From: Anaerolineales bacterium
GTDB taxonomy: Bacteria; Chloroflexota; Anaerolineae; Anaerolineales; UBA11579
DNA: 48,111 bases
Direction of reading: 5' to 3'
Assembly (NCBI GenBank): GCA_024710875.1
Contig: JANJTX010000005.1
Coordinates: 1 to 48,111, forward strand
Shown: piece after piece, positions 1-5,514 of the stretch
Layout: each line of letters begins with the position of its first letter
How positions within the stretch are numbered: the first letter of the stretch is position 1
The notes under the pieces: generated by a model
The model's database searches: none
What the model saw: only the letters and a program-made list of their open reading frames with translations
Told to the model about the DNA's origin: nothing
Translations under genes and position numbers: made by a program

Positions 1-24
1 AAAAAGTTTAAAAGCACGAATCAT
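1..24 (-). CDS. ABC-2 permease, second subunit (5' end only)
   Basis: Only the first eight codons lie in the window; they read MIRAFKLF on the minus strand. The ATG sits two bases after the stop of the permease at 27-842, and a strong AGGAGG-type ribosome binding site lies inside the end of that gene. Operons of this type usually carry an ATPase followed by two related ABC-2 permeases, so a second permease is the likely identity, but this rests on context because too little coding sequence is visible. Confidence 0.5.
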
Positions 25-26
25 GT

Positions 27-842
27 TCAGCCTCCTACCGCGGTAAAGCGTTTTAAGCCCTGTTTCCAAACCAGGTTCACAATCGTAAAGCTGGCAAGAA
101 TCCACAGCAATTGAGCGCCAAAGCCCTGCCAGATTTGCTCGGTGGTCAGGCGGCCAATCAGCACCTCAATCGGGAAACCAAAGGCCCACTGGAAAGGCAG
201 CCAGTTGGCGATACCCTGCGCCCATTCCGGCATCAGGCTCAAGGGTACCAGGCGGCCGGAGAGCAGGAGTTCCAGCGTGAAGAACAGCTCAAAGATGGCG
301 CTGACGCGGGTGGTCCAGAAGGTAATCAACCCCAGCGCCCACATGATACTGAAGCGCACCACAAAACCGAGCATGAGGGCCACCGGAAAGGCCGCCAACT
401 GGCCCCAGGTCGGCTGGATATCCGGGCGGAACACCAGCCACAGGAGGATGCCGGCCGGCAGCCAGTAGGCCACATACGGCACCTTGATGCCGAGGAAGAA
501 GCCGAGGTCATAGTGAATGGGGTGGATTGGTCGCAGGAGCTCACCGCCCAGGCGCCCATTCTTGATGCGCCATTCAAACGAAAAGGGCGAGAGCGAGAGG
601 TTGAACTGGCGCACCAGCGTCCACACGATGTAGTAGGCGGCGAAAGCCGAGGCGGTATAGCCGCCGACCTCACCGCCCTGCGACTCGGCCACATTCGTCC
701 ACACGATGAGGTAAATCAGCGGCTCGATGATCAGGTGAATCAGGAACATGACATTCGCCAGCCGGTACTGGAAATGCTCAATGATGGCGGTCTTGGCAGT
801 GACCAGATAGAAGTCGGTATAGTCGCGAGCACGGGCAAACAT
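27..842 (-). CDS. ABC-2 type transporter permease
   Basis: A 271-residue integral membrane protein with about six hydrophobic segments, consistent with the ABC-2 permeases that pair with a 330-residue ATPase and a second permease (COG4587/COG3694-type exporters). The N-terminal stretch before the first helix is short and cytoplasmic. Its ATG overlaps the TGA of the ATPase gene by one base, so the two are almost certainly translationally coupled. The complex would be an exporter in the cytoplasmic membrane. The substrate cannot be read from sequence; drugs, lipids or polysaccharide have all been suggested for relatives. The operon leader upstream (see 2084-2146) suggests translation-linked control. 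Confidence 0.85.
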   Translation of the reverse strand: MFARARDYTDFYLVTAKTAIIEHFQYRLANVMFLIHLIIEPLIYLIVWTNVAESQGGEVGGYTASAFAAYYIVWTLVRQFNLSLSPFSFEWRIKNGRLGGELLRPIHPIHYDLGFFLGIKVPYVAYWLPAGILLWLVFRPDIQPTWGQLAAFPVALMLGFVVRFSIMWALGLITFWTTRVSAIFELFFTLELLLSGRLVPLSLMPEWAQGIANWLPFQWAFGFPIEVLIGRLTTEQIWQGFGAQLLWILASFTIVNLVWKQGLKRFTAVGG

Positions 843-1855
843 CAGGCATTCTCCTTCTCAACCGCGGCTTCTTCCTTGGGCTGGTCAAAGACATGCTCAA
901 TCACTTCTTCAATCGGCGGGTCTTCGACCGTCAGGTCAGTGATGGGCAGGTCGGCCAGCATACGGGCGGTGACATGCGGCGTTTCGGCTTTGCCCACCCG
1001 CAGGGTGACGCGGTTGGGTTCCTGGCTGATGACCGTGCCAAAGGTGGCGAAGTCCGGCGTGTGGCCGTTCAGGTCACTGAAAGTCACCGAAAGCGTTTTC
1101 ATGGCCGAGAAGCGTTCCACCAGCCCGGCCAGGTCGCCATCATACAGAATCTGGCCGTGGTGGATGACGATGACGCGTTTGCACAAGGCCTGGACATCCG
1201 CCATGTAGTGACTGGTGAGCAACACGGTGGCGTTGTGCTTCTCGTTGTACTGCTGGATGAACCGCCGGATGCGGCGTTGCATGGTGACATCCAGGCCGAT
1301 GGTCGGCTCATCCAGAAAGAGCACCTGCGGGCGGTGCAGCAAGGCACCCACCGCCTCAACCTTCATGCGCTCGCCGAGGCTCAAGTTGCGCACCGGCTTG
1401 TTCACCAAATCGCCGAGCAGCATGAGTTCGATGAGTTCGTCGCGGGTTTCTTCGTATTCTTTGCGCGGGATGCTGTAGATGGCGCGGTTGAGCTCAAACG
1501 AATCGATGGCCGGGATGTCCCAGTTGAGCTGGCTGCGCTGACCCATTACGAGGGTGATCTGGCGCAGAAACTCCTTTTGGCGCTTCTCTGGCAGGTAGCC
1601 GAGGACGTCCAGTTCGCCGCTGCTGGGGTAGAGCAGGCCGGCCAGCATCTTGAGGGTGGTGGTTTTGCCGGCCCCGTTCGGGCCAAGGAAGCCGACCACC
1701 TCGCCGGGCTGGATATCAAACTCGATTGAGTCCACCGCCCGCACTTCCTTGTGCTTGCGGTTGAACAGGCTGACAACCGCGGCCTTGAGGCCGGCATCGC
1801 GTTCCGGCACTTTGAATATCTTGGTCAGGTTACGGACATGAATTGCAGGTTTCAC
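842..1855 (-). CDS. ABC transporter ATP-binding protein
   Basis: A 337-residue ATPase. Walker A (GPNGAGKTT) lies at about residues 58-66, the signature reads LSLGER, Walker B reads VLFLDEPTIGLD, and the switch histidine follows in LLTSHYM. A C-terminal extension of about 90 residues after the nucleotide-binding domain is usual for ATPases of ABC-2 exporters. It is the first gene of the operon and overlaps the following permease by one base. The start is supported by an AAGGAGA-type site a few bases upstream. About 500 bases of leader with two possible promoters, an upstream ORF and a terminator precede it. The substrate is unknown. Confidence 0.92.
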   Translation of the reverse strand: MKPAIHVRNLTKIFKVPERDAGLKAAVVSLFNRKHKEVRAVDSIEFDIQPGEVVGFLGPNGAGKTTTLKMLAGLLYPSSGELDVLGYLPEKRQKEFLRQITLVMGQRSQLNWDIPAIDSFELNRAIYSIPRKEYEETRDELIELMLLGDLVNKPVRNLSLGERMKVEAVGALLHRPQVLFLDEPTIGLDVTMQRRIRRFIQQYNEKHNATVLLTSHYMADVQALCKRVIVIHHGQILYDGDLAGLVERFSAMKTLSVTFSDLNGHTPDFATFGTVISQEPNRVTLRVGKAETPHVTARMLADLPITDLTVEDPPIEEVIEHVFDQPKEEAAVEKENA

Positions 1856-1942
1856 CAGCTTCTCCTTGTGGGTCTTGCAAAAAATTCAATTTCCTGAACT
1901 GTTTTTGCTATTTTTGTAATAATCAATCAATATATTTGATAG

Positions 1943-1968
1943 ATTATACAAAATATTTGTTTTGTCAA
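1943..1968 (-). promoter_or_regulatory. possible second promoter of ABC operon
   Basis: On the minus strand TTGACA (1968-1963) and TATAAT (1948-1943) are both perfect, but they are only 14 bases apart, shorter than the usual 16-18. The region is very AT-rich. Just downstream, ATCAA-N5-TTGAT forms a small inverted repeat that could be an operator. If active, this promoter would bypass the terminator at 2028-2058. Confidence 0.35.
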
Positions 1969-2027
1969 GTTGGTCTTCCAATTTTCTAAGGCTTTCCTAA
2001 GATTCAAGCGCTCAGCACCCAGGCAAC

Positions 2028-2058
2028 AAAAAACCGCAGGGCGAGTACGCACCTGCGG
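2028..2058 (-). terminator. intrinsic terminator in ABC operon leader
   Basis: On the minus strand CCGCAGG (2058-2052) pairs perfectly with CCTGCGG (2040-2034) across an 11-base loop and is followed by six T. It lies after the upstream ORF and about 170 bases before the ATPase start, so it would stop transcripts from the promoter at 2192-2221 unless it is overridden. A competing pairing, GGCTGGG (2098-2092) with CCCGGCC (2063-2057), overlaps its 5' arm by two bases. Confidence 0.75.
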
Positions 2059-2083
2059 CCGGGTCAGCAAAGAAATGGGGGCG

Positions 2084-2146
2084 TTAAATAGCCCAGCCGG
2101 GAGATGCGCAACAAGTGAACAAAATTGTGGTGTGGATGCCTGCCAT
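2084..2146 (-). CDS. 20-residue leader peptide (uORF)
   Basis: A short ORF on the minus strand starts at ATG 2146 and ends at TAA 2084. It begins MAGIHTTILFT and contains a CC pair and a late Trp. An excellent Shine-Dalgarno (AAAGGAGG) sits six bases before the ATG, far better than chance. It lies between a consensus promoter and an intrinsic terminator, the arrangement of a ribosome-mediated attenuator. No run of one amino acid codon points to an amino-acid attenuator, so stalling by a drug or by the nascent peptide is an alternative. Its identity as a leader is an inference from layout. Confidence 0.6.
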   Translation of the reverse strand: MAGIHTTILFTCCASPGWAI

Positions 2147-2191
2147 AGCGCACCTCCTTTCGCGATGTCACTGGCGAACCAGCGCAGGTAC

Positions 2192-2221
2192 AGAATACAC
2201 CCGCATGGGGCCATTTGTCAA
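2192..2221 (-). promoter_or_regulatory. sigma-70-type promoter of ABC leader
   Basis: TTGACA (2221-2216), an 18-base spacer, and TATTCT (2197-2192) on the minus strand. Transcription would begin near 2185 and run through the upstream ORF and terminator into the ABC operon. Confidence 0.65.
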
Positions 2222-2325
2222 CCGGCAAAATTCTAGCGAGTGGCTACCTGTGTGGGCACGGTGGGCTTTAGTACCCACCTGAATTTGCCAGGCGCATTGG
2301 TTTCAGGACTCCTGATTTAAAGATA

Positions 2326-2354
2326 AAAGCCGCACACGGCGGCTTTCTGTGGAT
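2326..2354 (-). terminator. terminator after small Cys protein
   Basis: AAAGCCGC (2326-2333) and GCGGCTTT (2339-2346) form a perfect 8-base-pair stem with a 5-base loop. Read on the minus strand it is followed by a T-rich run and lies 25 bases past the stop at 2371. Confidence 0.65.
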
Positions 2355-2370
2355 CGTAATATTGTCCGAA

Positions 2371-2607
2371 CTAGGGGTAAATCTCGTCCAGAATCGGGTC
2401 GTAAGTACAGATGCAACCGCCGGGGCGCGAGCAGCCTTCCAGCGGCAGGGCCGGGGCATCACCCAGGGCATAGACGCCCTGCACCATCTGCCCGACGGTG
2501 CAATTCTGGGGGGCGGCCACCCGCACGGCGGTAACGCGCGGGTTGGCCCGCATCTTTTTCAGGTATTCCGCCTGTTGTTCGGCTTTGTATTTGGTATCGG
2601 GTTGCAT
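2371..2607 (-). CDS. small Cys-containing hypothetical protein
   Basis: A 78-residue protein starting MQPDTKYKAEQQ. I chose ATG 2607 because GGAG lies six bases upstream; an open frame continues to 2736, but that extension has no ribosome binding site and a low-complexity composition. The N-terminal third is charged and probably helical. The C-terminal half holds a Cys near QNCTVG and a CSRPGGCIC cluster just before a conserved-looking YDPILDEIYP end. The cysteines could bind metal or form disulfides. There is no signal peptide. I do not recognise the family. A terminator follows, so it is probably monocistronic. Confidence 0.6.
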   Translation of the reverse strand: MQPDTKYKAEQQAEYLKKMRANPRVTAVRVAAPQNCTVGQMVQGVYALGDAPALPLEGCSRPGGCICTYDPILDEIYP

Positions 2608-2767
2608 GGTGTACTCCAAAGTGTAATTGTGCATTCTGGCGCAACTTTGTAATGATAAGCGATTTTGAAACAGAGGGGAAGGGGGCGGGTTAGAGAAAGT
2701 AGTGGTTTTTCTTGTATCGCAGTTGGCTGTCTGCACTTACCAGCCTCATCTGGTCGAGCACGCCCGT

Positions 2768-4546
2768 TTAGAACGGCGGCCAGAAAATCGGCAGGAAGAT
2801 GAGCGTGGCAATCAGGATGACGACATTCAGCGGCGCACCAACCCGGGTGAAGTCGGTGAACTTGTAGCCGCCCGGGCCAAAGACCAGCACATTGGCCTGA
2901 TGCCCTACCGGGGTGAGGAAACTGGTGGAAGCGCCAATCACACAGGCCAGCACAAAGGTGCGCGGGTCGGCGCCCAATTCCAGGGCAATATCAATCCCAA
3001 TCGGCACAATTAATACGGTAGCAGCGGCATTGGACATCGGCTCGGTAATCAGCCCGGCCAGGATATAAATGCCAGCCAACACGCCCATCACCCCAAAGCC
3101 GCCCAGCAGGCTCACGAGCGTATCTGCCAGAAAACGGGCCGTGCCACTACTTTCCATCGCCAGCCCCAACGGGAGCATGCCGGCAATCAGAAACACGCTG
3201 CGCCACTCAATGCTCTGGTAGGCCTCATCCATGTCCAGACAGCCGGTCAGCACCATCAGCACCGAGCCCAGCACCATCGCCAGGGAGACATGCAATCCGC
3301 CAATTGTGGTCAAACCCAGCACCAGAAGCATGATGGCGACGGTAAGCGGGGCCTTGTGCCAACGCCGCTGTTCAATTCTCACCGGTTCAAGCACCAGAAA
3401 TTCACCGCCCTCCTGCAGGGCCGGCAGGTTGCGCGGGGCACCCTGCAAGAGCAATGTATCGCCAAATTGCAGACGGACATCTTTCAGGCGATGGGTGATG
3501 ATTTCGCCCTGCCGCCAGATGGCCAGGGCGGTGAACTGGTAGCGGTCGCGAAAGCGGATATCGCGCAGTGTTTTTCCGGCAATCGCCGCCCGAGGGGCTA
3601 ACGTAGCCTCCACAATCTGCAGGTTGGCATCGCCTTCCTGCTGCAATCCCAGCGTGCGCTCAGCCTCAATTTCCAATCTGAGGTCCTGCTTGGCCCGCAG
3701 CAGGTTTTCCACCGTGCCCTCTACTATCAGCAAATCTCCAGCCCGGATGTTGATGCTCGGCAAAGGCATCACGCTGGTCTCTTCGGCCCGCAAAATCCTA
3801 ACCACCGAGAGGTCATAATCGGCGCCGAGGCCGGACTGGTACAGGCTCTTGCCAGCCAGCGGGCTTTCGGCGCTTATGCGCACTTCGCTTACATATTCAC
3901 GCAGTGAGTTGAGCTGTTCGGTTTCTACTGGCGGGTGGGTGGGGAGAAGAAACCGCCCGGCCAATACCATGTACAGGATGCCGCTGGAAAAAACAACAAT
4001 ACCCATGGGTAGAAAATCAAAAAAGCCCAGGGTCGCCAGACCGCGCTCGGAGAGGATGCTGGCGGCCAGCACATTGGGTGGGGTGCCGATGAGGGTCATG
4101 TTGCCGCCCATCAGGGAGGCAAACGAAAGCGGGATGAGCAGCCGCGAGAGCGGCACACCACTTTGGCGCGAAACCCCGGCCACCGCTGGCAGCAGCACCG
4201 CCGCAGCGCCAATGTTGTTCATGAATGCCGAAAGGATGCCGGAAGCGAGCATGATGACAAAGATGAGCCGCGCCTCGCTGTTGCCGGCCAGGGCCATAAT
4301 GCGCGCCCCGAGGACATCCGCCGCGCCACTGCGGAACAACCCACCCGACACGATATACACCGCCCAGACGGTAATGACCGCCGGGCTGGAAAAACCGCTG
4401 AAAGCCTCCTCCGGAGAGACCAGCCCCACCAGGGTGAGGGTGAGCAACACCAGCAGGGCGATGACATCCACCCGCAGTTTTTCAGTAGCGAACAGCACCA
4501 CGGCGGCCAGCACAATCCCCAAGGTGAGCAGAATGTCAGGAGTCAC
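2768..4546 (-). CDS. SLC13/DASS-type permease with two RCK_C domains
   Basis: A 592-residue transporter. About six helices (residues 1-205) carry the helical-hairpin motif FMNNIGAA near 108 and GTPPN near 154. Two TrkA-C/RCK_C-like regulatory modules follow at about 218-290 and 310-385, and a second membrane half repeats the hairpin motifs (PMSNAAATVL, then TPVGHQANVLV). The family moves dicarboxylates, sulfate or related anions, usually with sodium. The RCK_C insertion is typical of a large bacterial subgroup whose substrate is rarely known. The stop lies close to 2768 and the gene starts four bases from the end of the VWA gene, so the two may be co-transcribed. Confidence 0.88.
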   Translation of the reverse strand: MTPDILLTLGIVLAAVVLFATEKLRVDVIALLVLLTLTLVGLVSPEEAFSGFSSPAVITVWAVYIVSGGLFRSGAADVLGARIMALAGNSEARLIFVIMLASGILSAFMNNIGAAAVLLPAVAGVSRQSGVPLSRLLIPLSFASLMGGNMTLIGTPPNVLAASILSERGLATLGFFDFLPMGIVVFSSGILYMVLAGRFLLPTHPPVETEQLNSLREYVSEVRISAESPLAGKSLYQSGLGADYDLSVVRILRAEETSVMPLPSINIRAGDLLIVEGTVENLLRAKQDLRLEIEAERTLGLQQEGDANLQIVEATLAPRAAIAGKTLRDIRFRDRYQFTALAIWRQGEIITHRLKDVRLQFGDTLLLQGAPRNLPALQEGGEFLVLEPVRIEQRRWHKAPLTVAIMLLVLGLTTIGGLHVSLAMVLGSVLMVLTGCLDMDEAYQSIEWRSVFLIAGMLPLGLAMESSGTARFLADTLVSLLGGFGVMGVLAGIYILAGLITEPMSNAAATVLIVPIGIDIALELGADPRTFVLACVIGASTSFLTPVGHQANVLVFGPGGYKFTDFTRVGAPLNVVILIATLIFLPIFWPPF

Positions 4547-4549
4547 GGC

Positions 4550-5514
4550 TTAACTCCCGACCATCTCGGACCGCACGGCGTGATAGAGGTTTTCAGCTTT
4601 GAGCTCACTCAAGGTGTAGCACGGGCCTTTGAGGTGTTCGGCCAGGGTCTGGGCCAAACCCTGGTCAAAGGCAGCATGCTCCATATTGATGACCACGCTG
4701 CGGATTTTATCCTGGGCAATCTGGTCGGCCAGGCGGTGGGCTTCTTCGGCGGGGGGCATATCGGTCAGAGCGACATTACCGGCGCCATCCGTGAGGAGGA
4801 TGATGAGTGGCAGCACATCCGGGTGGGCCAACTGCTCGCGCCGGATGACCTCATGCGCCAGAAACAGCCCGGCCGAAAGCGGGGTCTTGCCACCCACCGG
4901 GATATCGTTGAGGGCGCGCTGGGCCAGCTGCACCGAGTTGGTCGGTGGGAGTACCAGGTTGGCGCGGTCCTTCTGGAACACCACCAACCCCACCCGGTCA
5001 CGGCGCTGGTAAGCATCCGTGAGCAGCGAGACGATGGCGCCCTTGGTGGCGGCCATGCGTTCGGCCACAGCCATACTCCACGAAGCATCCACCACAAACA
5101 TCACCAGGTTGGCGGTCAGGCGAACGCGCACCTTCTCCTGCATGTCAGAACGCTCAATGGCGAAAGCGGTCTGGCGTTCGGCGCGCACATCGGCGCGCTG
5201 GAGCTGGAACGGGGCGGCGGCCCGCAGGGTGGCATCAAAGGCCACATCGCGCGGTTTGCCGCGCGCCGGGCGGGCCTGAATATAGCGGCCGCGCTTGCGG
5301 TCGGTGCGGGTACGCGAGCGACGGCCGCCCTGTTTGCGGCTGATCTTGTCAAGCTGGTTATCGAGGCGGCGAGGGGTGAAGGTTTCGCCAGAATGTACTT
5401 TCTGGCCGCCATCCCACCAGTAGGCATTGCCGGAGTCAAAGACCTCCTGCGGGCCGGGTTCGGCCGGGGCCTGGTCAGGCGTGCCTTCGGTGATGCGCTT
5501 ATCTACGCTTTTTT
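4550..5514 (-). CDS. chlD: chelatase VWA part, reached by -1 frameshift
   Basis: This frame is open from just after a TAA at 5519-5517 down to the TAA at 4550 and has no convincing start of its own; the first usable codon is a GTG at 5245 deep inside conserved sequence. Upstream of that GTG the translation still looks like ChlD, with an acidic/proline linker, then a very basic GRRSRTRTDRKRGRY patch and RGKPRDVAFDATLRAAAP. The VWA domain follows with MIDAS motif DASWS and LLTDGAGN. The preceding AAA+ gene ends in this region at GAT AAA AAA AAA GCG TAG. Slipping back one base in the A9 tract (5509-5517) enters this frame and gives one protein of about 686 residues, the usual ChlD length. Function: medium subunit of a Mg- or Co-chelatase-type complex. 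Confidence 0.8.

Follow-up and report, generated by a model that had tools for sequence, protein, structure and literature searches.

The systems closest to the one described here are the leaders of vmlR and of bmrCD (bmrB) in Bacillus subtilis, and the rli80 leader of hflXr in Listeria. The bmrB leader is induced by translation inhibitors (PMC4191407), and in rli80-hflXr read-through is induced by drugs (PMC6310831). Induction of both the vmlR and rli80 leaders is abolished by start-codon or Shine-Dalgarno (SD) mutants (PMC9226507, PMC6310831), and leaders of the vmlR type do not need an arrest motif in the peptide. In the window (the whole 48,111-nucleotide stretch of Anaerolineales DNA that was analyzed), a leader containing a short upstream open reading frame (uORF) lies on the minus strand ahead of an ABC exporter operon. 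From covariation and folding, we think it probable that this leader is a ribosome-controlled transcription attenuator in which arrest close to the start codon would give read-through, making it a codon-independent sensor of stalled translation. Comparison of related loci further indicates that it belongs to an RNA family of the class Anaerolineae that has more than 100 copies.

The leader in the window and its relatives

A sequence-only reading of the locus had described a promoter, an SD, a 20-codon uORF, and a terminator before the ATPase gene. All are present on the minus strand (Table 1), and the layout is kept in relatives. The leader promoter is the sole match in a promoter scan of positions 1-5000, although shuffled sequences give as many matches. 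The terminator stem (about 2058-2034, with 7-bp arms and an 11-nt loop) is followed by six T residues; a simple terminator scan of the window region did not detect it, probably because the loop exceeds the limit of the scan. The leader folds modestly better than its shuffles (z about -1.9). Taken alone, this single sequence is insufficient to establish the leader, and it is conservation among the compared sequences that lifts it above chance.

Table 1. Features of the leader and the operon behind it in the window
Feature	Position	Strand	Basis
Leader promoter, TTGACA 2221-2216 and TATTCT 2197-2192	2192-2221	-	18-nt spacer; promoter scan
Small 5' hairpin at predicted transcript start	2166-2186	-	fold; both congeners
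Full SD of uORF, AAAGGAGG	2160-2153	-	sequence
Segment 1, uORF SD and following bases, GGAGGTGCGC	2148-2157	-	fold with segment 2; 1:2 covariation, 100 copies
uORF, 20 codons, ATG 2146 to TAA 2084, MAGIHTTILFTCCASPGWAI	2084-2146	-	sequence; frame conservation
Segment 2, anti-SD within uORF, GCGCATCTCC	2100-2109	-	fold; covariation
Segment 3, SD-like terminator 5' arm, CCGCAGGTGCGTA	2046-2058	-	2:3 covariation; three-way covariation
Segment 4, terminator 3' arm CCTGCGG 2040-2034 and U tract 2033-2028	2028-2040	-	fold; covariation
Second promoter-like site, between terminator and ATPase	1941-1968	-	sequence; congeners
ABC exporter ATPase, putative regulated gene, GTG at 1855	842-1855	-	Pfam ABC_tran
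ABC-2 permease (ABC2_membrane_6), second operon gene	27-842	-	Pfam

Upstream of the leader, a gene for a small cysteine-containing protein (2625-2371, minus strand) ends and is followed by a terminator-like hairpin of its own (AAAGCCGCCGTGTGCGGCTTTT, near 2343-2324), so that the leader probably receives no transcription from upstream.

We compared the regions upstream of orthologous ATPases in two congeners (95% and 92% identity to the window ATPase), in eight genomes of genus g9 (74-80%), and in genome G033, from another family (65%). The uORF and terminator were found upstream of orthologous ABC operons across these genera and in the other family, as had been proposed as a check, and every one of these regions has the promoter, the SD, an ATG-initiated ORF of 16-20 codons, and a CCGCAGG..TGCGG terminator. 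Further copies turned up in genus g19 when 400 genomes of the order were searched with a pattern; those that look genuine precede the same ABC ATPase. A promoter of the leader type lies directly upstream of 111 of 120 copies, and in 8 of 351 control windows. Judged from these comparisons, the leader is real and conserved. The 5' hairpin is probably accessory, since it is missing from several g9 leaders; in both congeners its stems carry altered bases with pairing preserved.

Alternative pairing and the upstream reading frame

The anti-SD (mostly xCCUCC) lies in the last third of the uORF and is complementary both to the uORF SD and to the terminator 5' arm. Segment 2 can thus pair in the window either with segment 1 (helix 1:2, ten pairs, 2109-2100 with 2157-2148) or, as 2110-2102, with segment 3 (helix 2:3, nine pairs, with 2054-2046). 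The first of these pairings, between the uORF SD and the uORF's own anti-SD, had been overlooked. The antiterminator originally proposed, GGCTGGG with CCCGGCC, does exist (2098-2092 with 2063-2057), but it is shared with only one congener (L004), and the conserved antiterminator is instead helix 2:3.

A covariance model (R1) was built with helices 1:2 and 3:4 only; the window sequence is part of the model, so that its own score is not independent, and E-values are rough because calibration was short. Helix 2:3, which is absent from R1, is paired in 92.9% of cells over 100 aligned copies, with 31 double changes compared to 12 in shuffles, while slid controls give 17-70% paired. Helices 1:2 and 3:4, to both of which the alignment was fitted, are 98.1% paired with 44 double changes compared to 13 in shuffles, and helix 3:4 alone is 99.9% paired across copies; covariation counts throughout are inflated by the relatedness of the sequences. 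For 98% of leaders, segment 3 finds its best partner in the anti-SD. Three bases vary together, those after GGAGG, before CCUCC, and after GCAGG, in the combinations C-G-C (49 copies), U-A-U (15), C-G-U (9), and U-G-C (7); a further 11 copies have A at the third position and no pair there, some being pairable by eye in a shifted register (CAGGAG with CUCCUG). No other evidence argues as strongly for mutually exclusive pairing as this agreement among three positions, and covariation and folding together indicate that the predicted antiterminator and the intrinsic terminator are mutually exclusive.

Two variations on this plan were seen. In seven RsgA-linked or distant-family copies (L150, L171, L175, L196, L203, L205, and L013), CCUCC is lost and pairing runs through bases after the SD, as GGCGCAC/GUGCGCC and similar; R1 and a second model, R2, therefore underestimate the family. 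Five RIO leaders (L098, L110, L128, L129, and L215) have a second terminator-like hairpin within about 100 nt of the first, in a tandem-like arrangement, as exemplified by L098 (CCGCAGGAATGTCGTTTCCTGTGGTTTTTG).

The uORF is probably translated, to judge from its frame: of 122 scorable leaders, 117 have the anti-SD in frame with the ATG, and in 109 the stop codon lies 18, 21, or 24 nt past it. Peptide conservation, also proposed as a check, did not materialize, by contrast with conservation of the layout. Differences between close pairs number 83, 63, and 59 at codon positions 1, 2, and 3, and codon changes comprise 45 synonymous and 114 nonsynonymous; although this test is rough, as pairs share sequences, the counts do not suggest that purifying selection acts on the peptide. 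Comparison of the copies thus places conservation in the start, the frame, the stop distance, and the RNA pairing, and not in the peptide.

The same data bear on two readings in which the codons or peptide would matter. An amino-acid-specific attenuator of the trp or ilv type, with the ribosome stalled on regulatory codons by scarce charged tRNA, would share the general logic of helices 1:2, 2:3, and 3:4, and Ser occurs in 83% of uORFs and Cys in many of the ABC-linked ones. Nonetheless, among the uORFs of the leader copies we found no residue common to all and no codon run for any one amino acid; the codons before the anti-SD are without purifying selection; and the targets are exporters, kinases, and RsgA rather than a biosynthetic pathway. 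We consider this reading highly improbable. The lack of a codon run had already been pointed out, and it makes the sensing of stalls or drugs plausible. Alternatively, a specific nascent chain, for example Pro-Pro near the C-terminus, could stall the ribosome upon drug exposure or low EF-P. Pro-Pro is encoded in 96 of 117 leaders, but CCUCC encodes Pro-Pro in the uORF frame, and the window uORF itself has Ser-Pro. Moreover, the remainder of the peptide is unconserved, no known arrest motif (e.g., RLR) is common to the peptides of the leader copies, and a stall at Pro-Pro covers segment 2 and would favor termination, all of which leaves arrest by a particular nascent chain very unlikely.

Proposed mechanism

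We propose that the attenuator operates as follows. If translation does not initiate, segments 1 and 2 would pair, helix 1:2 would block the antiterminator, and helix 3:4 would terminate transcription. In normal translation, the ribosome would cross segment 2 and be released a few codons later at the stop, and helix 3:4 would again terminate. A ribosome sitting on the SD and start codon, and halted within roughly the first four codons, would mask segment 1 and leave segment 2 free; helix 2:3 would then form before segment 4 is made, giving read-through to the operon genes. The identity of the codons and of the peptide would not matter in this scheme, since it is enough that the ribosome is held close to the start codon.

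To model these states, 93 leaders were folded with a ribosome footprint masked at each codon. In transcripts not yet extended to segment 4, placing the ribosome on the first codons yields an antiterminator probability of 0.93-0.98 with little helix 1:2, and a ribosome over the anti-SD reduces the antiterminator to about 0, consistent with read-through depending on ribosome position. In the ribosome-free prefix, helices 1:2 (mean, 0.53) and 2:3 (mean, 0.70) compete, and because so much of helix 2:3 forms, the model resolves the untranslated off state less clearly than the other two states. At full-length equilibrium the terminator prevails in every state (0.97 without a ribosome; lowest, 0.72 at well-sampled positions), so antitermination must be kinetic, acting during transcription, as it does in other attenuators. 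Termination and read-through in cells, and the direction of the response, are what the covariation and folding would predict. Covariation, frame conservation, and folding thus all lend support to the original suggestion of a uORF-dependent transcription attenuator before the ABC operon.

The signal should be translation inhibitors or a general slow-down of translation (translation stress); we infer this from the codon independence, the target genes, and the precedents of vmlR, bmrB, and rli80 (PMC9226507, PMC4191407, PMC6310831). A somewhat different possibility is that the leader senses 30S supply or initiation and not stalled elongation, with a 30S subunit at the SD alone freeing segment 2. 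Segment 1 being the SD itself would suit such a sensor, as would the presence of RsgA and RIO kinases among the targets, but drug exporters are a poor fit, and a sensor of initiation alone would have no need of the uORF, its frame, or its stop distance, all of which are strictly kept. We regard an initiation sensor as unlikely.

Target genes, distribution, and known systems

The first gene downstream of the 120 copies in the order is most often a RIO-type kinase (69 copies) or an ABC ATPase of the window's kind (35); the others are MFS (4), ABC_membrane exporter (4), RsgA (3), M24 peptidase (2), and one each of alpha/beta hydrolase, GNAT, and an unassigned gene. These assignments are by Pfam on representatives and otherwise by similarity to them, except that a motif was the sole basis for two RIO-like kinases (behind L110 and L122) and the beginning of a truncated contig the basis for the ATPase behind L068. 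These two kinases form a second RIO-like group (about 280 aa) and are followed by an M24 peptidase or alpha/beta hydrolase; as a counterpart, the same leader lies immediately before the peptidase or hydrolase at L114, L137, and L143. The two main target groups are tied together in genome G052, where a divergent leader (L013, G052:C39, 3671-3525, minus strand; 23 bits) precedes a RIO kinase whose immediate downstream neighbor, read in the same orientation, is the ABC ATPase, both under one leader copy. A search of the window's own genome, which is incomplete, found no RIO kinase. For the window ATPase, the nearest NCBIfam model is drrA, at a score under its cut-off.

A second AT-rich promoter-like sequence had been reported past the terminator. 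The sequence is indeed present, as TTGACA (1968-1963) followed by TATAAT (1948-1943, 14-nt spacer) or TAATCT (1946-1941, 16-nt spacer), but the promoter scan of 1-5000 gives it no score. In a comparison of the window with L003, L004, L005, and L006, it is recognizable in both congeners, its form among members of the window's genus being TTGACA with GATAAT/TAATCT; some g9 leaders have TTGACT with TATGAT/TATTAT at 17-nt spacing. The window operon could therefore bypass the leader, and owing to this site operons in the window's genus may be only partly leader dependent. In g19 copies, the spacer between terminator and ATPase is short and a second promoter is not obvious, so the leader is probably the sole entry to the ATPase; family f11 likewise has short spacers with no obvious equivalent of the second promoter.

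Another reading is that the leader is simply a stand-alone small RNA or small-protein gene with its own promoter and terminator, the ABC operon being driven only by the second promoter, which does lie past the terminator in the window's genus and some g9 leaders. However, a same-strand gene immediately follows 119 of 120 copies, and these genes belong to few families. In addition, the peptide is unconserved, the f11 spacers are short and without an obvious promoter, and a stand-alone RNA would not need the alternative 2:3 pairing. A stand-alone gene is hardly credible on this evidence.

R1 matches occur in 104 of 400 genomes of the order. In the class as a whole, R2 finds matches in 55 of 396 genomes, among them members of about ten families that lie outside the order, and RIO, ABC exporter, or GNAT genes follow most of the R2 loci inspected; the confirmed R2 loci leave out L204, L207, and L210. 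A search of 301 genomes across the phylum found nothing convincing beyond the class, its one extra match (G960, L210) being left out of the confirmed elements. When 84,980 species were scanned with a pattern, 75 matches came up, of which 62, at 49 bits or more, are in records named Chloroflexi, Anaerolineae/Anaerolineales/Anaerolinea or relatives, or Herpetosiphon (one metagenome-assembled genome). The remaining 13, none above 22 bits, have the look of chance matches.

Neither the window nor 20 related loci score above the gathering cut-off of any Rfam family, and keyword searches in the main text of the open-licence papers PMC2965389, PMC2864571, and PMC11109978 found no such motif. What emerges is an RNA regulatory family that Rfam lacks, strict in its layout and present in more than 100 copies. 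To our knowledge, little RNA regulation has been described in the phylum Chloroflexota. RIO kinases take part in small-subunit maturation in archaea and eukaryotes, and RsgA is a 30S-assembly GTPase; a search of the open-licence literature for RIO kinase, Chloroflexi, and antibiotic returned no papers. The targets hint, in a testable way, at what bacterial RIO kinases and an uncharacterized ABC exporter family do. Tentatively, one switch of SD, anti-SD, and SD mimic may couple stalled ribosomes to exporters, RsgA, and RIO kinases in a class-wide Anaerolineae translation-stress regulon, although we would put this at slightly less than an even chance; such a regulon would imply a part for bacterial RIO kinases in ribosome maintenance or rescue.

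By analogy, the Anaerolineae leader appears to work like those of vmlR, bmrB, and rli80, with no testable family-level sequence in common. The vmlR leader also has uORF-dependent attenuation with an anti-antiterminator, antiterminator, and terminator, is induced by ribosome arrest at the start with the SD and start codon essential, as we propose here, and has uORF sequence variants among species (PMC9226507). It differs in having a 3-codon uORF in the bulge of the first stem with a single-stranded SD, a pause hairpin, an SD-sequestering hairpin, and an ABC-F target (PMC9226507). The bmrB leader similarly has a leader ORF and three alternative hairpins controlling ABC exporter transcription, but its ORF has 54 codons and contains the terminator, the role of its first hairpin is unproven, and the exporter family is different (PMC4191407). 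In rli80-hflXr, a short ORF likewise lies over an anti-antiterminator and the target is a ribosome factor, but the peptide has an RLR macrolide-arrest motif, whereas the Anaerolineae peptide is unconserved (PMC6310831). The toiL-topAI leader of Escherichia coli has a uORF that answers several classes of ribosome-targeting drugs, including by start-codon arrest, but it acts through translation and Rho-dependent termination rather than an intrinsic terminator (PMC12121999). Attenuators of the trp type share the mutually exclusive 1:2, 2:3, and 3:4 helices and differ in their amino-acid-specific codons and biosynthetic targets. The Anaerolineae leader differs from vmlR, bmrB, and rli80 in using the SD of the uORF itself as the first pairing segment and in having a terminator arm that imitates this SD, a design that would read ribosome arrest near the start codon independently of the codons.
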